From Betaproteobacteria bacterium (GTDB lineage Bacteria; Pseudomonadota; Gammaproteobacteria; Burkholderiales; Burkholderiaceae): a stretch of 7,683 nt of DNA. Every line of letters starts with the position of its first letter. Positions within the stretch are counted from its first letter, which is position 1. Both the position numbers and the translations under genes were made by a program. The stretch is taken from contig JAATGO010000142.1 in NCBI GenBank assembly GCA_015654605.1, positions 1 through 7,683 on the forward strand. Direction: 5' to 3'. Under the pieces are notes generated by a model. It did no database searches. It saw only the letters and a program-made list of their open reading frames with translations, and was not told the DNA's origin. Positions 1 through 7,683 of the stretch are shown in pieces.

Positions 1-188
1 TGAAGCATACTATGCGTTACGCCATGCTGGTCATGCAATGTCAGCCCTTGCGTTTGTATCACCTGCAAAGTACTACCACGTGCCAAGACATTCACCTGCT
101 GTCCTGCAGCGGTCAGTCGTACTGCCAGCGTGCCACCAATAGCTCCAGCACCTGCAATACAGATACGCATTTTTTTGCACTTATCCAT
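1..188 (-). CDS. Ketopantoate reductase (PanE/ApbA) family protein, N-terminal part only
   Basis: This is the start of an oxidoreductase whose remainder lies beyond the left edge; 62 codons are visible. After a short lead (MDKCKK) comes MRICIAGAGAIGG, a beta strand followed by the dinucleotide-binding GxGxxG loop (G13, G15, G18). A second strand then ends in VLARG (residues 34-38), whose arginine suits NADP(H). This order is typical of the 2-dehydropantoate 2-reductase family. The start at 188 is preferred because GGA lies about 8 bases upstream; an ATG at 170 is the alternative and would remove six residues. It begins 51 bases after livF in the same direction, so it is probably the next gene of the operon. 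Family members in catabolic clusters often reduce other 2-oxo acids, so true pantothenate synthesis is doubtful and the substrate is unknown. Family assignment is fairly sure; function is not. Confidence 0.75.
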   Translation of the reverse strand, partial: MDKCKKMRICIAGAGAIGGTLAVRLTAAGQQVNVLARGSTLQVIQTQGLTLHDQHGVTHSML

Positions 189-239: not shown

Positions 240-989
240 TTATACTGCCAAACGATCCTGATGCCTTCCACTCAATCCCAGATAAGCATCAATCACGCGT
301 CGATCATGCGCCAATTCGCTGGCAAGTCCATGCATTTTGATTTCACCATTCTCCAGCACATATCCATAATCAGCCACCTGCAATGCAGCACGTGCATTCT
401 GCTCTACCAATAAAATCGAAACACCTCGCCTGCGCAATTCGGCAATAATACGGAAAATATCTCGTACAATCAGTGGCGCCAAGCCAAGACTGGGCTCATC
501 AAGCATTAACAGTCGTGGTTTTGCCATCAATGCACGTCCTACAGCAAGCATTTGACGCTCACCTCCAGATAATGTTCCTGAAAATTGTGTTTTTCGTTCA
601 CGCAATCGCGGAAACAACACATACACTTCTTCCAATGTCTGTAAAAAATCACGCTGTCGTTTCCGGTATCGATAAAACGCGCCTAATAAAAGGTTATCTT
701 CGACGCGCATCTCACTAAATAGTTCTCGCTTTTCGGGCACCAATGTCATGCCTGCAGCAACCATTTGTTCAACTTCTGGTGCATGTCTCACAGTTCCATC
801 AAACAGAATTTCTCCTCCCGATGGTAATACTCCCATAATGGCGGAAAGTAATGTAGTTTTGCCCGCGCCATTAGGACCAATCACGGTAACGATCTTGCCC
901 TCTTCAACATGGACATTCACATCGGATAGCACCTGTACCTTGCCATACGCTGCAGTCAAGTGATGTACTTCCAAAACATTATGTGTCAT
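240..989 (-). CDS. livF: LivF-type ATP-binding subunit of a branched-chain/aromatic acid ABC importer
   Basis: This cytoplasmic ATPase powers the importer together with the ATPase half of the fused protein upstream. In its 249 residues I see Walker A GPNGAGKT (38-45), the ABC signature LSGGERQ (140-146) and Walker B LLMLDEP (160-166). The Q-loop position carries Glu (VPEKREL, E86) and the H-loop position carries Gln (VEQN, Q197); both are usual for LivF and mark it off from LivG. The length is slightly above E. coli LivF (about 237). The ATG at 989 is chosen because GGGAG sits six bases upstream; a GTG at 992 would be only three bases from that site. The start overlaps the end of the preceding gene by 11 bases, which suggests translational coupling. 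The substrate cannot be read from this subunit. Confidence 0.93.
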   Translation of the reverse strand: MTHNVLEVHHLTAAYGKVQVLSDVNVHVEEGKIVTVIGPNGAGKTTLLSAIMGVLPSGGEILFDGTVRHAPEVEQMVAAGMTLVPEKRELFSEMRVEDNLLLGAFYRYRKRQRDFLQTLEEVYVLFPRLRERKTQFSGTLSGGERQMLAVGRALMAKPRLLMLDEPSLGLAPLIVRDIFRIIAELRRRGVSILLVEQNARAALQVADYGYVLENGEIKMHGLASELAHDRRVIDAYLGLSGRHQDRLAV

Positions 990-2787
990 CACTGACTCCC
1001 AGATAAGCTTCTAACACTGCGGGATTGTTCTGTATCTGATCGGGTAGGCCTTCAGCAATTTTCTGTCCGAAGTCCATCACAACCACACGGTCGACCAGTT
1101 CCATCACAAAGTCCATATCATGTTCCACTAACAAAATCGCCATTCCTTCAGTGCGCAATTTACGCAATAGACTGCCAAGTGCCTGCTTTTCTCCAAGCCG
1201 CAAACCGGCAGCAGGTTCATCCAGCAGCAATACACAAGGGTCGGAGGCCAAAGCACGAGCAATTTCCAAAATACGTTGCTGCCCAAGCGAAAGCGATCCT
1301 GCTGCGGTATACATCTGATCTTGAAGACCGACGCGCTCAATTTGGCGTGCTGCCTCTGCAAGCAAGCGCGCTTCCTCCTCCCGATCCAATCTTAATATCG
1401 ATGACAACACACCACGCCTGCCTCGCAAATGTGCGCCTATCGCTACATTTTCCAGAACTGACATTCCTGGTAACAGGCGAACATGCTGGAAACTCCGACT
1501 CATGCCAAGACTGGCAATGTGCCGCGAACCTTTACCAGTAACATCATAGCCACGAAATAACACCGTCCCTGCAGTCGGGGTATCGATACCAGAAATCTGA
1601 TTAAACAACGTCGATTTCCCCGCGCCATTAGGCCCAATCAATGCCAACACCTCTCCTGTAAATACTTTCAGACTCATTTGGTTGTTGGCGACCAAGCCAC
1701 CAAATTTCCGTGTCACTTCACGCACATCCAGCACCACTTCTCCTGGATTCGGCATCGTCCGCCGCAACAGTGGCAAGGCCTGCCTGTTAATCGTGATCTG
1801 TTTGGTACGCACAGGTATCCATCTCGCAATGAATGGCCAGACACCATCACGCGAACGTTGCAACATCACAATGAGCAATACACCAAATACAATATTCTCA
1901 AAATTTCCTGTACGTCCCAGCAAGACTGGGAGTATTCCTTGCAGCCATTCTTTCAGAATAACAATCAATCCGGCACCAAGTAATGCTCCCCAAATATGAC
2001 TGGCACCACCCAGCACGGCCATAAACAGGTAATCAATCCCGAATTGCAGACTGAAGGGGGAGGGATTAATAAAACGCTGCATATGTACATACAACCAGCC
2101 TGATAACGCCGCCAGCAATGCTGCTAGTACAAAGATAATGACCCTTGAGCGCGCCGTATTGATCCCCATCGCTTCTGCCATCACTATGCCGCCCTTGAGA
2201 GCACGAATAGCACGTCCCTCGCGCGAATTCAGCAGATTGAGCAATGCGTATGCTGCAGCAATAACAGCAATCCAGATCACGCCATAAATCATGCGATCAC
2301 TGACGAGCGCAAAACCAAACAGAGAAATCGGTGGAATACCGGACATTCCGCTTTGTCCACCTAAAGTTTGCAGCGTACCGAATAGAAAATAAAGACTGAT
2401 GCCCCAGGCAATTGTCCCTAAGGGTAAGTAATGGCCAGACAACTTCAACGTGAGTCCCCCCAATAGCAACGCCAATAGTACTGTCAGTAGCAATGCCACA
2501 ATCAAGGCAACCCAGGGTGACTGCAACCACATGACATCATGCGGCAAATTCAATGCCCCACTTGTTAAAGCAGCTGATGTATAGGCACCAATACCGACAA
2601 AGGCCGCCTGACCGAAACTAGTCAAGCCAGCCACGCCGGTCAACAATACCAGCCCCAACACCACCAAAGAACTCAACCCAATATTATTGAGCAAGGTGAC
2701 ATCAAAAGAACTCAGTACAAACGGCGCTACAATCAGCAATACGATAAATATCAGCAATATCGTTTGGGAAGAAATTGCTTTTTTCAT
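979..2787 (-). CDS. livM/livG: Fused LivM permease - LivG ATPase of the ABC importer
   Basis: One 602-residue reading frame joins two subunits that are separate in E. coli. Residues 1 to about 315 are a LivM-type membrane permease with many hydrophobic segments, [16 protein letters not shown] (54-69) and the coupling-loop stretch [20 protein letters not shown] (191-210). A basic linker (about 319-347) leads to a LivG-type ATPase. That half has Walker A GPNGAGKS (385-392), Q-loop glutamine Q434 (SFQHVRL), signature LSLGQQR (499-505), Walker B VLLLDEP (519-525) and H-loop H556. The signature lacks the usual SGG, as is common in LivG. The ATG at 2787 has an ideal GGAGG seven bases upstream; the frame is open 32 codons further, but that stretch lies inside livH. 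The start overlaps the livH stop as ATGA. Fused LivMG proteins are known in proteobacteria, so this is unlikely to be an assembly error. Confidence 0.93.
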
Positions 2788-3818
2788 TCGTCTTCCTCCA
2801 CGTGACGACTCGATAGTGAACGCCATAACAACACAGGAATAATCAGTACGAATACAATAATTTCTTTGTACGTACTTGCCCAAAACGTGGAGAATGCCTC
2901 AATGACTCCCACAAATACCGCGCCGACGGCTGCTACTGGATAACTCACCAACCCACCAATGATGGCGCCGACAAAGCCCTTGAGGCTGATCAAAAACCCT
3001 GAATCATAGTAAATGGTAGTAATAGGGGCAATGAGTATGCCCGACATCACCCCAATCAGTGCTGCCAGAAAGAACATAGCCTTACCTGCAAATACAGGAG
3101 AAATTCCCATTAAACGTGCTCCCATGCGATTCATTGCAGCAGCGCGCAAAGCCTTACCATACAACGTCCGTTCAAACATCAGAAATAACGCTACGATCAA
3201 AGCAAGGGAAACACAAATTACCCATAGAGCCTGACTGTTCAAGCGAAATGAACCCAGTTCCAGATCGGCATCAGAAAATGGTATCGTGCGAGAACCATCT
3301 GGTCCAAAGACCAGCAGGCCAACACCAACTAAAGCTACATGCAATGCAATCGAGACAATGAGTAATACTAGTGATGAAGCATTCGCAATGGGTTGAAATA
3401 CCATGCGATACAAGAGCGGCCCCATCGGTACTAATATGGCCAATGTCAATAAGACTTGTAGCAACATAGGCCAACTCGCCAACGGTGCATACCATACAAG
3501 TACCGTGAACACTGCCGCATAGACTAATTTGAGTGGTAACCAGACAGATGGCCATCGATGCCGTGCACGTAGCAACGCTACCATGTCCATGGCGATAGAC
3601 ACCAGACACAATGCCACTAACCACAATACGACCCACACGCGCTGCCCACTCTGAATCGCACTCATGGTCAGTGCGCCGAAAGCCACAAATTCTCCTTGAG
3701 GTATTAGAAGAATACGCGTTACGGTAAACACCAACACAATTGACAGTGCTAGCAATGCATAAATTGCGCCATTGGTAATACCATCTTGCCCCAACAACGC
3801 TACGATGTGAAGATTCAT
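2784..3818 (-). CDS. livH: LivH-type permease of the ABC importer
   Basis: This inner-membrane permease should pair with the LivM half of the fusion to form the translocation channel. The 344-residue protein has about eight to ten hydrophobic segments. The start ([21 protein letters not shown] from residue 11, then [11 protein letters not shown] at 40-50) is characteristic of LivH. The cytoplasmic coupling loop is [22 protein letters not shown] (218-239). It is longer than E. coli LivH (308); the extra length appears to lie in the region around residues 60-115, which includes a basic loop LLRARHRWP (82-90). AAAGGTG about six bases before the ATG supports the start at 3818. The stop codon overlaps the next start by four bases (ATGA). 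It lies 59 bases after the binding-protein gene, separated by a hairpin region. Confidence 0.92.
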
Positions 3819-3843
3819 TACTACACCTTTGCAAATGAAAGAA

Positions 3844-3892
3844 CGCCAGTACCATTCATAATACTGGCGATAGCACGCTATTTCAGTAGCGT
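3844..3892 (-). promoter_or_regulatory. Two tandem hairpins at the binding-protein/livH junction
   Basis: A perfect 8-bp inverted repeat, CGCCAGTA (3844-3851) and TACTGGCG (3862-3869), encloses a 10-base loop. Just upstream in transcription a 6-bp repeat, ACGCTA (3875-3880) and TAGCGT (3887-3892), spans the stop codon of the binding-protein gene. On the transcript the larger hairpin is followed by TTCTTTCATTT, which is only moderately U-rich. My reading is a 3' stabiliser or partial terminator that lets the binding protein outnumber the permeases, a common arrangement in binding-protein operons. The dyads are seen directly; the function is inferred. Confidence 0.5.
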
Positions 3893-5020
3893 CCAGTTTC
3901 CATCTTTAACCTGAATCAATTCACGACCACGCTCATCGAAACCACTATGGTCTTGTGGCGTCATGTTGTAGACGCCTTGTGTGGCAACCAATTCTTTCGT
4001 ATTCTCAAGTGCATCACGCAAAGCAGCGCGGAACTCTTTGGTACCTGGCTTCGCTTTTTTGGCAGCAATAGGAATCGCTTTTTCCAAAAGCAACCCCGCG
4101 TCAAATACATTTGCACCGAAAGTAGCAGGCTTGCTACCATTGATTTTTTCATAGGCAGCGATATAGTCACTGGCAACTTTTTTAGAAGGATTACTGTCTG
4201 AGATTTCAGGTAGTACCAGCATCAAACTTGCCGCCAAAATTGTGCCATCTACCTTCTTTTTTCCAAGCTGTAGGAAAGCAGGTAACGCAGCACCATGGGT
4301 CTGATACATCTGTCCCTTATATCCTTGGTCATACAGTGTTGTTTGTGGCAATACGGTAGAACCTCCCGGGGCAGCAACCAGGACTGCATCTGGATTCGCT
4401 GCCATTATCTTCAATGCTTGCGCAGTCACGGAGGTATCTGTCCGTTGATAACGCTCATTGGCCACAATCTTGATATTATTCTTGGCTGCCAACTCAGAAA
4501 ATACCTTGCTCCAGTTCTCGCCAAAAGGATCATTAATGGCGATAAACCCTACCGTCTTGATCTTCGTCTTCACCATGTGTTCTACTAACGCTTTGGCAAT
4601 CAGGTCATCATTCTGTGTCGTCTTGAATACCCATTTTTTTTGTTCTGTCATGGGCAACACAACCGCTGCAGTACCCACTGGCGCCAACAGTGGCACACCT
4701 GCTTCTGCCACAAAAGGAATGACTCCAACCGAATTAGGTGAGCCACTGGGGCCAATAATGGCATCTACATTGTATTCAGAAATTAATTTTTTGATTTCTG
4801 TTACGGATCTGGTTGGATCACTACCATCATCCAAAGAAATATATTCCACTGTCAAATTGCCCACTTTGGTGGGCAATAAAGGAATGGTATTTTTTTGTGG
4901 AATCCCCACCAATGCAATCGGACCAGTCGCAGATGTTACCACTCCCACCTTGACCTGGGCATGAGCGGAAGTCACGACGGCCAACGCCAGTGAGACAGCA
5001 AGCAAACGGTTAAGCAACAT
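3878..5020 (-). CDS. Periplasmic substrate-binding protein of the importer, aromatic-acid (RPA1789-like) type
   Basis: This is the extracytoplasmic receptor that captures the substrate and hands it to the LivH/LivM channel. The 380-residue precursor starts with a signal peptide: positive N-end (MLLNR), hydrophobic core, and AHA before Q22 as the likely cleavage site. The mature part is a type I periplasmic-binding fold: [11 protein letters not shown] (24-34), [11 protein letters not shown] (63-73), [10 protein letters not shown] (88-97), VFKTTQNDD (131-139), [11 protein letters not shown] (189-199), YQTHGA (239-244) and a C-terminal [19 protein letters not shown] (350-368). From memory these blocks match binding proteins of the Rhodopseudomonas RPA1789 type, which bind phenylpropanoid-like aromatic acids, better than leucine-binding LivK. 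The start at 5020 has GGAG eight bases upstream; the frame stays open to 5065 but that would bury the signal peptide. The exact ligand is unknown. Confidence 0.9.
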
Positions 5021-5052
5021 ATCTGTTTCTCCAAAAATGAATGAATGGCCTA

Positions 5053-5081
5053 TCAATATTGACACTATTACTCGCGGTAAA
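5053..5081 (-). promoter_or_regulatory. Weak candidate internal promoter before the transporter genes
   Basis: In the 130-base gap between the SDR gene and the binding-protein gene, TTTACC (5076-5081) and TATTGA (5053-5058) are separated by 17 bases on the minus strand. They match the sigma70 consensus at four and three of six positions. The -10 candidate overlaps a perfect 10-bp palindrome, TCAATATTGA (5053-5062). A second small dyad, GTGC-T-GCAC, is at 5088-5096. No convincing terminator is seen in the gap, so read-through from the upstream genes remains likely. Confidence 0.22.
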
Positions 5082-5150
5082 TAGTACGTGCTGCACTACT
5101 TACCACACTCACTGACCAATGCCTTGATCAATGCATCAACCAACGATCGA

Positions 5151-5894
5151 TCAACGCATAGACAACCCGCCATTGATATCAAAACAAGATCCTGTGACAA
5201 AGCCCGCTTCAGGGGCTGCCAACAGTAATACCGCATCAGCAATAAAGTCGGCATCGCCAAGAGAACGTACTGGTATGGTCTGCACGATCGCCTTGAGTTT
5301 TTCTGCCGGAACTGTCTGATGCACAATCGGTAAATCAAGTGGCCCCGGAGAAATCGCATTGACTGTGACATTGCCAGCAGCAAGTTCACGTGCAAACACT
5401 TTCGTCAACGTCAGCACACCTCCTTTGGCAGCGGCATAATGTGCTCCGGTGGCAGTTCCACCGGTCTGGCCTGCCAATGAGGCAATATTCACGATGCGTC
5501 CATATCCTTGTTCAGCGAAACGTTTCCCCAATACTTGGCAGGCAAGAAACGTGCCTTTCAGGTTAATCGCGACAACATCATCAAACTCTTCTGGGGTAAT
5601 GTCCATCAGCGCCCCTATGCGAGACTGTCCAGCATTATTGACCAACACACTGACCCCGCCCCATTGCTGTACCAATGTATCGTACGCTGTAAGAAAATCC
5701 TGCTTGCGACGCACATCAAGTGCTAATGCCATTGCATTCGCCCCACTAGCATCCAAGCTTGAGGCAATTGCCGTTGCCTGCAAAAAATCAATATCCGCAA
5801 CAGCAACCCGATATCCGGCAGCATGCAATTTGCGTGCAATCTTCTCCCCCAAGCCGCGACTGGCTCCAGTGATCAATGCAATCTTTTTATCCAT
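5151..5894 (-). CDS. Short-chain dehydrogenase/reductase, possible IacE-role enzyme
   Basis: This is a classical SDR of 247 residues, the standard length. It has the cofactor loop TGASRGLG (9-16), NNAG (86-89), and the catalytic set N111, S139, Y153 and K157 (HYAAAKGG). The C-end GSCFDINGGLSMR is typical of the FabG-like group. Aspartate at the end of the second strand (AVADID, D34) suggests NAD(H) rather than NADP(H). GGAG seven bases before the ATG supports the start. It begins 38 bases after the iacB-like gene. In characterised iac clusters the SDR IacE converts 2-oxoindole-3-acetate to dioxindole-3-acetate; its place next to iacA/iacB-like genes makes this the leading guess. Many SDRs of this group act on other hydroxy or oxo compounds, so the specific role is uncertain while the family is firm. 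Confidence 0.9.
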   Translation of the reverse strand: MDKKIALITGASRGLGEKIARKLHAAGYRVAVADIDFLQATAIASSLDASGANAMALALDVRRKQDFLTAYDTLVQQWGGVSVLVNNAGQSRIGALMDITPEEFDDVVAINLKGTFLACQVLGKRFAEQGYGRIVNIASLAGQTGGTATGAHYAAAKGGVLTLTKVFARELAAGNVTVNAISPGPLDLPIVHQTVPAEKLKAIVQTIPVRSLGDADFIADAVLLLAAPEAGFVTGSCFDINGGLSMR

Positions 5895-5932
5895 TCTTTA
5901 TCTCCGCAAAACAAAACTGTTTCGTGTCAACA

Positions 5933-6298
5933 TCAACTACCCTGAATAATCAAGGCGCGCCCAATACGTGCCTCAATGCGACCATATTTCCATAAGCGTT
6001 CTTCACCGATTTTGATCGTGCGGAATAGATTGCAGCCGGCAACCACCGTATCCAAATCCACTACATCTGCCATGATGTAAAAAGTCCATGGCCATGCAGC
6101 GGATGATCCCACCATAGTGCGGTCATCATCCATCGTTCCGATAATGGTGACTCCAGGCATTTCATTTAATGTCGTCATCATTTCACCGTATGCCTTCCAC
6201 ACAGCACCCGTCTTGCTTTCTGGAAGATCAAAGAAATTCTGCGTTACACCAACGCAGAACATGACGCGTAATGGATCTTGATTAACCGGTTGTGTCAT
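5933..6298 (-). CDS. iacB: IacB-like small protein of unknown biochemical function
   Basis: A 121-residue protein with no signal peptide or membrane segment. Visible blocks are RVMFCVGVTQNFFDLP (11-26), GVTIIGTMDDDRTMVG (49-64), the aromatic stretch WPWTFYIMADV (69-79), CNLFRTI (89-95) and RLWKYGRIEARIGRAL (101-116). Alternating beta-like and helical stretches suggest a small alpha+beta fold. Size, these blocks and its position directly after an IacA-like gene fit IacB of indole-3-acetate catabolism clusters, whose function is unsettled; work on Caballeronia glathei found IacB was not required for the IacE reaction. AAGGAG eight bases before the ATG firmly fixes the start, 32 bases after the preceding stop. 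The gene is certainly coding; the IacB name rests on recall of the family and context. Confidence 0.65.
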   Translation of the reverse strand: MTQPVNQDPLRVMFCVGVTQNFFDLPESKTGAVWKAYGEMMTTLNEMPGVTIIGTMDDDRTMVGSSAAWPWTFYIMADVVDLDTVVAGCNLFRTIKIGEERLWKYGRIEARIGRALIIQGS

Positions 6299-6330
6299 GG
6301 TACCGACTCCTTGTGCATGAAATGAATAAA

Positions 6331-7506
6331 TTATAGAAATCCGGGGATAGGTGGCACACCCAATGTGACAGCACCAGCACCGTCATAAATACCCTCTCCC
6401 AGAAATGCATGTTGCTTGACGACCGCAGCATCACGAAGATAACGCTGTAAAGGATGGTGAGAATAAATCGCTGTCGTTCCCGCCAAACCAAACATGTTCT
6501 GTACCACCTGATTCCCCACTCGAGCAACCTCAACAGCAGTCAGGCGCAATAAGCTCACCTGCTCCGGTGTAACTGGATTACCCGCTAGTATGGATTGCCA
6601 GACATCCTCTGTTGTGTCATATAAAAAGGCGCGTGCCGATCGTAACAGTGCCTCATTCTTGGCAACAGTAATACGCACGTAAGAACGATCTGCCAGTTTC
6701 GGCGCGCCTGTAATGGCGATACGTCCTCCTGCCATCAGGGAGATTTCATCTAATGCAGCACGCGCAATCCCCAGATTGACTACACCCAATACCTGTGCAG
6801 CGTAAGCAATGGTCGGGTATCGATACAAGGGCTCATCAATCGTTGGTTCACCTCCGCGAATAAATGTCCATTCATCGGACACAAATTGTTGCGTTACCCG
6901 CAGATCATGGCTGCCAGTACCAGCTAATCCCATGACATCCCAGTTATCGATAATCTCCACCTTGCCTGGAGGAAATACGGCTGTGCGTGGTTTGGATCCC
7001 AACTGCCCGGGAGCACCAGCACCAATACCGACTCCCAACATGTCAGCTCCTTTGCAACCACTGGCAAATTTCCAGGTACCATTGACCATCCAACCTGCCT
7101 CGACCTGCTGTGCTGGTTGTATCGGAAATAACCCTCCGGCAAATACCAGATCAGGAGACTCTGCATACATCACGGCCTGCGTTGATTTCGGCAACGCTGC
7201 TAAATAGACTGATGCAGAACCAAAACTAGCGACCCATCCAACTGAACCATCCGCCTCAGAAATTTTCTCTATCAATTGTAAAAAAGCTGCCGGTGACATG
7301 CCCGACCCACCAAAACAGGTGGGAGTTGCCGCGCGGTACACACCGATTTTCTTGAGCTTGCTAATAAATTCTCGTGGTACATATCGCAAGTTGCCAAACT
7401 CTTCGCGTCGCGCTCGAATCTCGCTTAATAGATGCGCCATGTCGTCTTGCTGTGCCACCGCTGTTATCGCTTCCTCAGTCGTACCAGATACTCCCAGTGC
7501 AGACAT
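6331..7506 (-). CDS. iacA: IacA-like flavin-dependent monooxygenase (acyl-CoA dehydrogenase fold)
   Basis: A 391-residue cytoplasmic flavoenzyme of the acyl-CoA dehydrogenase/HpaH-HsaA monooxygenase superfamily. Landmarks are FGGSGMS (65-71), SEADGSVGWVASFGSAS (83-99), the mid-domain GTWKFASGC (143-151), WDVMGLAGTGSHDLRV (189-204), and C-terminal helices with LQRYLRDAAVVKQHAFLG (353-370). The GLxGTGSHD block is typical of the hydroxylase branch rather than of true acyl-CoA dehydrogenases. IacA proteins start indole-3-acetate breakdown by oxidising the indole ring, using reduced flavin from a separate reductase that is not in this window. The ATG at 7506 is chosen because GGAG lies six bases upstream; an in-frame ATG at 7518 lacks a ribosome binding site. 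It is the first gene of the block. Other aromatic hydroxylases of this fold are the main alternative. Confidence 0.72.
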   Translation of the reverse strand: MSALGVSGTTEEAITAVAQQDDMAHLLSEIRARREEFGNLRYVPREFISKLKKIGVYRAATPTCFGGSGMSPAAFLQLIEKISEADGSVGWVASFGSASVYLAALPKSTQAVMYAESPDLVFAGGLFPIQPAQQVEAGWMVNGTWKFASGCKGADMLGVGIGAGAPGQLGSKPRTAVFPPGKVEIIDNWDVMGLAGTGSHDLRVTQQFVSDEWTFIRGGEPTIDEPLYRYPTIAYAAQVLGVVNLGIARAALDEISLMAGGRIAITGAPKLADRSYVRITVAKNEALLRSARAFLYDTTEDVWQSILAGNPVTPEQVSLLRLTAVEVARVGNQVVQNMFGLAGTTAIYSHHPLQRYLRDAAVVKQHAFLGEGIYDGAGAVTLGVPPIPGFL

Positions 7507-7543
7507 TCTGTTCTCCATAAGTCATCACATGCGACGAAAAATG

Positions 7544-7589: not shown

Positions 7590-7618
7590 AGTGTAAGGAT
7601 GCGAGCTTTCCGGTTCAA
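7590..7618 (-). promoter_or_regulatory. Candidate sigma70 promoter for the operon
   Basis: On the minus strand TTGAAC (7613-7618) and TACACT (7590-7595) are spaced by exactly 17 bases, each matching the consensus at four of six positions. Transcription would start near 7583, giving a leader of about 77 bases before the preferred start of the iacA-like gene. The spacer holds a GGAAAGCTCGC element related to the downstream dyad. No other pair in 7507-7683 looked better. Beyond the promoter (7619-7683) I see no gene and no clear terminator. Confidence 0.45.
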
Positions 7619-7683
7619 TCTGGATCGCTATGACATTTTTAAGGGAAATCTTGCTAACGCATAAAGAAAACCCCTAGATCGAA

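Follow-up and report, generated by a model that had tools for sequence, protein, structure and literature searches.

A probable uptake-and-first-oxidation arm of an indole-3-acetate (iac) gene cluster, and a binding-protein family found beside three indole-3-acetate pathways

The locus and its enzymes

The stretch of DNA analysed here (the window) comprises positions 1 to 7,683 of contig JAATGO010000142.1 of a betaproteobacterial genome (GCA_015654605.1), has a G+C content of 47.7% and holds, by its open reading frames, seven complete minus-strand genes in tight order between positions 240 and 7518 (Table 1). Three of them encode homologues of IacA, IacB and IacE and, judged by these relationships, the window holds the first-step enzymes of the breakdown of indole-3-acetate (IAA); the other four encode a periplasmic solute-binding protein (SBP) and the permeases and ATPases of a Liv-type ABC importer. 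The SBP and IacB are 72–88% identical to their Herbaspirillum/Duganella counterparts. An earlier note on this DNA had described seven same-strand genes with short gaps or overlaps and a complete importer, a description borne out by the coordinates and by its recurrence in ten related loci (see below). From iacA to livH the spacers measure 32, 38, 130 and 59 bases; at the last two junctions the genes overlap slightly, and all seven presumably form one transcript. The span given in that note, 240 to 7506, holds for the seven genes, but iacA may start at either 7518 or 7506, and a gene at the window's edge had gone unlisted: a PanE-like fragment, 71–80% identical over 54–61 residues to the PanE that follows livF in ten relatives (in one of them, L006, PanE has a Pfam ApbA match), which by this likeness is a continuation of the operon. 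Matches in Pfam and NCBIfam agree with the assigned families, IacB excepted.

Table 1. Features of the window; positions count from its first letter
Feature	Position	Strand	Basis
CTAGGGGWTTTCTTTA, 16-base conserved element, operator-like, upstream of iacA	7662..7677	-	exact recurrence in relatives
sigma70-like promoter, TTGAAC-17 nt-TACACT, after CTAGGGGWTTTCTTTA	7590..7618	-	conserved
iacA, flavin-dependent monooxygenase oxygenase component	6331..7518	-	Pfam Acyl-CoA_dh_2, identities, tree
iacB, small protein, predicted ferredoxin-like fold	5933..6298	-	family of 277 relatives; AlphaFold2
iacE-type short-chain dehydrogenase/reductase (SDR)	5151..5894	-	identities to IacE, tree
SBP (periplasmic binding protein), type beside iac/iad/iaa-type loci	3878..5020	-	PDB-chain matches, neighbourhood classification
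hairpin, 11 bp, T-rich tail, between SBP and livH, possible attenuator	3844..3869	-	z-score only -1.5
livH-type permease	2784..3818	-	Pfam BPD_transp_2
livM-livG fusion, permease + ATPase	979..2787	-	Pfam BPD_transp_2 + ABC_tran + BCA_ABC_TP_C
livF-type ATPase, start GTG or in-frame ATG	240..992	-	Pfam ABC_tran; 66–67% identical to Acinetobacter LivF
PanE/ApbA-like 2-dehydropantoate 2-reductase gene, 5' part, cut by window end	1..188	-	likeness to relatives' PanE

IacA shares 68% and 66% identity with oxygenases encoded in the iac clusters of a Cupriavidus and a Burkholderia plasmid, respectively, and 46–47% with Acinetobacter IacA. When 52 proteins encoded in iac loci are placed in a tree with two HsaA-type outgroups on long branches, other close PDB matches being left out, it falls into a clade of nine, mostly from Oxalobacteraceae (SH-aLRT 100), away from the outgroups. 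At the base of this tree no order is supported among the window's clade and the Paraburkholderia, Cupriavidus, actinobacterial and Acinetobacter-containing clades, all of which lie far from HsaA. The SDR is 64% identical to the IacE of Cupriavidus and 51% to that of Acinetobacter, and it lies with 32 other IacE proteins inside the IacE group (SH-aLRT 96), apart from six other SDRs on very long branches that served as outgroup; both iacA and iacE are therefore present. IacB, for which neither Pfam nor NCBIfam gave a match, has 277 relatives, several of which, among the 120 listed, carry the source name IacB, and the family occurs beside iacA. Its AlphaFold2 model (pLDDT 86) predicts a ferredoxin-like fold, for which Foldseek returned one match at E <= 0.001 (TM-score 0.48), and no function is drawn from the fold; a scan of viral contigs confirmed no relative. 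The IacA tree, the placement of the SDR and the occurrence of the IacB family beside iacA thus set the three enzymes among the Iac proteins, as the earlier note had proposed, and not in a non-indole hydroxylase clade.

Conservation of the operon and its control region

The order iacA-iacB-iacE-SBP-livH-livMG-livF-panE-aldolase is found in ten Herbaspirillum/Duganella loci (L006–L008 and L013–L019) among 80 iac loci, the top-ranking of 493 when ordered by similarity to the IacB of the window; since they were ranked in this way, the 80 loci lean towards the window's relatives. A truncated locus from a metagenome-assembled genome (L020), in whose stretch no iacC was found, keeps the same order up to livMG and brings the count to 11 of the 80. 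Because the order recurs in the ten loci and partly in L020, the arrangement is not due to chance. In four loci of related bacteria (L009–L012), iacA, iacB and iacE occur with no importer in the stretch examined.

All ten relatives carry, a few kilobases upstream and in divergent orientation, an iacH-type amidase gene and iacC, and nine of them iacD and iacF as well, the tenth (L014) being cut there. Because of this divergent arm in loci with the same operon, the window probably represents one of the two arms of an iac cluster, the one for uptake and first oxidation. A minimal pathway made of iacA, iacB and iacE, lacking iacC and iacD, was set aside, given the iacC on the divergent arm of the ten close relatives. 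Between the two arms, a porin gene is present in 10/10 relatives and is a candidate outer-membrane route.

The region upstream of iacA is conserved as well. The 16-base element is found in exact form in 21 of 213 loci in addition to the window, once per locus and only upstream of iacA, although some of these loci are one genome counted twice (e.g., L013 and L206); a search of 3.9 million bases for a looser form gave nothing further except a variant before iacA in L020. The promoter hexamers and their spacing are identical in the window and in all ten Herbaspirillum/Duganella relatives, and L020 has TTTAAC. In L006, the one locus examined in this respect, a gene for a PAS histidine kinase lies between the arms, divergent from iacA, which, together with the element and the promoter, suggests two-component control of the iacA operon; no response regulator was found beside iacA. 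A description of a conserved iacA promoter element was not seen in the open-access literature. In the relatives examined, conservation does not extend to the hairpin that lies between the SBP gene and livH.

The binding protein and its relatives

The solved chains closest to the SBP are 3sg0 (337 bits) and 4dqd (328 bits), with further chains down to 7ylt, which is IadK2 (263 bits), whereas the best chain named as leucine/isoleucine/valine-binding reaches 58 bits. Against the NCBIfam branched-chain model PRK15404 the SBP scores 33.9 bits, far below the cut-off of 477, and so does not qualify as a LivJ/LivK-type SBP. A literature look-up yielded no useful information on what 3sg0 and 4dqd bind; we take these chains and their kin to be aromatic-acid binders, in part on the basis of PMC10374108. 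The claim of the earlier note that the SBP resembles aromatic-acid rather than leucine binders therefore stands, and a leucine-type importer was rejected on the PRK15404 score and the ranking of the chains. The SBP is 40% identical to IadK2 and belongs to a separate clade; these two observations and its changed pocket residues rule it out as an IadK2 orthologue. An AlphaFold2 model of the SBP (pLDDT 60.6), built on an alignment too uniform to help, was not used.

With the SBP alone as query, matches were obtained in 8/200 and 12/399 genomes sampled within the order and in 23/199, 106/250 and 11/245 genomes of three families, which were chosen because they held SBP matches. The SBP places listed number 153 (score limits 1e-140 to 1e-160), of which 103, mostly taken down the rankings, were classified from stretches of up to 20 kb, and 50 are unclassified, two of these (G001 and G181) showing iac genes. 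A relative was counted as linked to iac when IacA (at least 45%) was accompanied by IacC or IacB, to iad when IadD (at least 70%) or an iad ligase together with a thiolase (at least 65%) was present, and to an iaa-type locus when two of three iaa enzymes (at least 55%) were present; it was counted as unlinked when none of the three pathways lay within about 10 kb, or less where the contig ended. The iad loci were identified via an IadD homologue, the copy in L100 scoring 651 bits against 7yls (the solved IadD, residues 1–434), and the iaa-type loci by their Pfam content, namely a three-subunit molybdenum hydroxylase, a B12-dependent mutase and a class III CoA-transferase, with further matches to an AMP ligase in L133 and to hydantoinase B and a B12-binding protein in L131.

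By these definitions 69 of the 103 relatives are linked to an IAA pathway (12 to iac, 51 to iad and 6 to iaa-type loci). Linkage follows likeness to the window's protein, as all 49 relatives at least 74% identical to it are linked, against 20 of the 54 below that value; the window's SBP itself stands beside IAA genes and is at least 74% identical to linked relatives. LivH (at least 50% identity) is in the stretch in 12/12 iac, 34/51 iad, 0/6 iaa-type and 2/34 unlinked rows, and PanE with a class II aldolase in 11/12 iac and 6/51 iad rows and in none of the iaa-type or unlinked ones. That members of a single SBP family occur next to iac, iad and iaa-type genes is, in our view, a more interesting result than the locus itself; it fits the prediction of a dedicated IAA importer and lends support from sequence to the proposal of the earlier note that import of an indole acid is coupled here to its oxidation. 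In an Azospirillum plasmid (L099, positions 10963–17802), a window-type importer (SBP 73% identical) lies with an IacH-like amidase gene and a MarR gene near an annotated ACC deaminase, and no iac, iad or iaa genes were recognised in that stretch.

The linked and unlinked relatives differ in the pocket, at the column of F168 of IadK2, where the window has I162. In this column 66 of the 69 linked rows have I, L, V or T and three have F; two of the latter are second SBP copies whose loci hold another copy with L. The unlinked rows have F or Y in 28 cases out of 34, and L or T in six. When all well-filled columns were scanned in a thinned set of SBPs (77 of 110 rows), the F168 column ranked first as separator of linked from unlinked proteins, a ranking that is not blind because the column had been noticed earlier in 39 sequences; the column of IadK2 position 102, two residues from S104, came second. 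It seems rather likely that the SBP provides pathway-independent auxin capture, with or without Liv permeases beside it and paired with iac, iad or iaa genes, through a pocket unlike that of IadK2: where the unlinked relatives usually have an aromatic residue, this type has a small aliphatic one (I162 in the window) or threonine, which would make room for the indole ring.

Interpretation and comparison with known systems

We consider it quite probable, as a whole, that the window derives from a Herbaspirillum-near betaproteobacterium and forms, within a two-arm iac cluster, the arm for uptake and first oxidation, in which an SBP-Liv importer supplies IAA to IacA, IacE and IacB. The SBP would capture IAA, its putative ligand, in the periplasm, and LivH, LivM-LivG and LivF would import it at the expense of ATP; IacA, with a flavin reductase presumably encoded elsewhere, would convert it to the 2-hydroxy/2-oxo acid, from which IacE with IacB would make dioxindole-3-acetate, and the products of iacC, iacD and iacF, from a divergent arm that this organism presumably shares with its relatives, would take the latter on to catechol. 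The chemistry of IacA and IacE and the role of iacC, iacD and iacF are those of published work on other strains, and the order of the reactions and the pairing of IacB with IacE follow PMC9613470. The identities of the genes, their order and conservation, and the repeated presence of this SBP type beside three IAA pathways are read directly from sequence. The finding is real and the reading of it is well supported by the sequence comparisons, from which we infer the ligand.

Several observations weigh against this reading and lend themselves to other explanations. The window is devoid of iacI, iacC, iacD, iacF, iacG and iacH over its 7,683 bases, and its IacA is only 46–47% identical to that of Acinetobacter, as would be expected if IacA, IacB and IacE acted on another indole or aromatic acid, separately from the classical iac pathway. 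The earlier note had called for inspection of the flanks, which was made in the ten relatives: iacC and the iacH-type gene (10/10) and iacD and iacF (9/10) were found on the divergent arm, but iacG was found in 0/10 within the stretches examined, and the SnoaL-type iacI, before the amidase gene, in just three (L006–L008). Given that divergent arm, and an IacA that stands in the tree with the Paraburkholderia and Acinetobacter clades and far from HsaA, albeit with no order among the clades, a substrate other than IAA appears improbable. Still harder to defend, and in our judgement very improbable, is an ordinary branched-chain amino acid transporter lying next to the iac genes by chance; the source annotations do name the importer parts in this way, but the SBP is much closer to aromatic-acid binders than to leucine binders and its family is repeatedly linked to three auxin pathways.

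Most of the remaining observations bear on the ligand, since the importer could serve the iac pathway with a main ligand other than free IAA, such as 2-oxo-IAA, indole-lactate, indole-pyruvate or an auxin conjugate, processed by PanE and the class II aldolase, an IadK2-type importer handling IAA where both exist. Of the seven placed IadK2 positions that contact IAA (taken from PMC10374108), the window's SBP keeps three, S104, R199 and F308, and does not keep N126, F168 (I), W172 (F) and Y311 (N), so that within the set F168, W172, R199, F308 and Y311 just R199 and F308 are kept. Moreover, in two of the ten relatives, L007 and L008, a further SBP, of the IadK2 type, is encoded about 1 kb beyond the aldolase gene (19162–20340 and 19176–20336, respectively); it is 70–71% identical to IadK2, with N126, F168, W172, R199, F308 and Y311 kept and T for S at 104; in the genome of L007 this SBP is followed by its own livH-livMG-livF, giving a complete importer (L106, 768–5585), and the other eight relatives show no such second SBP within the stretch examined. 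In two alphaproteobacterial loci (L065 and L122), the importer that accompanies the iac genes is of the IadK2 type, and the stretches read contain no SBP of the window's type. Taken with L007 and L008, these loci indicate that two kinds of importer accompany iac clusters, and that of the window may differ from the other in its range of ligands. In addition, 34 of the 103 SBP relatives adjoin none of the three pathways, and a tree built without the F168 column gives four independent pairs on supported branches, of which on average 2.5 agree and 0.0 oppose (median p 0.25, in a test that cannot reach 0.05 with fewer than six informative pairs); with so few independent contrasts, common descent could explain much of the pattern in the pocket column. 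IadK2 itself, which PMC10374108 describes as binding IAA in vitro with nanomolar affinity, was not required by the engineered strains in which IAA use was tested (PMC12633357 and PMC10374108), so cells may be able to do without a specific importer. Weak binding of oxIAA by IadK3 of Variovorax (PMC10374108) and the presence of PanE and aldolase near the SBP in nearly all iac rows would also suit a ligand other than free IAA. Nevertheless, all three linked pathways begin with IAA itself, the SBP also occurs in iaa-type loci, where IaaM is the named indoleacetate uptake protein in PMC8360864, and PanE with aldolase was not found in the stretches read of 45 of the 51 iad rows and of the six iaa rows; a different main ligand is thus unlikely, if less so than the two explanations above, and import of IAA remains the preferred reading.

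Uptake of IAA by bacteria is largely open, and auxin transporters are only speculated about in PMC9613470; an SBP family tied to three pathways is therefore a concrete candidate importer, with the residue of the F168 column as a pocket position of interest and the SBP as a possible sequence marker for auxin-consuming bacteria. The statement of the earlier note that uptake is poorly defined in iac clusters holds in this sense, except that an importer beside iac genes had already been reported. In the Marinomonas sp. NFXS50/MWYL1 cluster, according to PMC11373566, genes for a class II aldolase, PanE, an ABC ATPase, a permease and an SBP adjoin iacA, with iacB beside it as in the window, and are called of unknown function. 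Unlike the window, where iacA-iacB-iacE runs straight into the importer, Marinomonas has a contiguous iacABICDEFG with the SBP before iacA, and one gene between ATPase and permease is annotated as a metal-dependent hydrolase. The same cluster includes an alpha-hydroxy-acid oxidising enzyme, as does another iac cluster (L101), in which a gene for an FMN-dependent alpha-hydroxyacid dehydrogenase lies between livF and panE (4501–5694).

The iac clusters of Acinetobacter plasmids (L001, L002 and L005) have the same order SBP-livH-livMG-livF-PanE-aldolase near the iac genes, with an SBP 66–70% identical to that of the window; unlike in the window, a full iacH-A-B-I-C-D-E-F-G run followed by an OprD porin gene precedes the importer in L005, and several kilobases of other genes separate the iac genes from it in L001 and L002. 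In the L001 record (14656–18741), the annotation splits both the SBP gene and the LivM-LivG gene in two. In a Klebsiella plasmid (L121), what follows the iac genes is annotated as an MFS transporter, in place of the ABC importer. Similar iac arrangements in Acinetobacter and Curvibacter are described in PMC11630574. Burkholderia and Paraburkholderia clusters carry iacA, iacB and iacE with iacC-iacD in a separate block, as is the case near the window's relatives; in most of them the iacF, iacC-iacD and iacA-B-H-E blocks are on one strand, and no Liv importer lies within the stretches of up to 10 kb on each side.

Among binding proteins, the window's SBP is comparable with IadK2 of Variovorax (7ylt), an SBP of an auxin-degradation operon (PMC10374108), from which it differs in clade and pocket as detailed above. 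By its gene neighbourhood it is also comparable with IaaM, the binding protein named for uptake of indoleacetate in the anaerobic iaa pathway of Aromatoleum (PMC8360864), a setting that differs from that of the window in being anaerobic; the SBPs at five iaa-type loci (L128, L129 and L131–L133) are 73–75% identical to the window's. In the open-access literature, subscription papers aside, no paper was seen that treats the SBPs of the three pathways together. Importers beside iac genes, as in Marinomonas, and IaaM as a named uptake protein are already known, and the window adds a further case to them.

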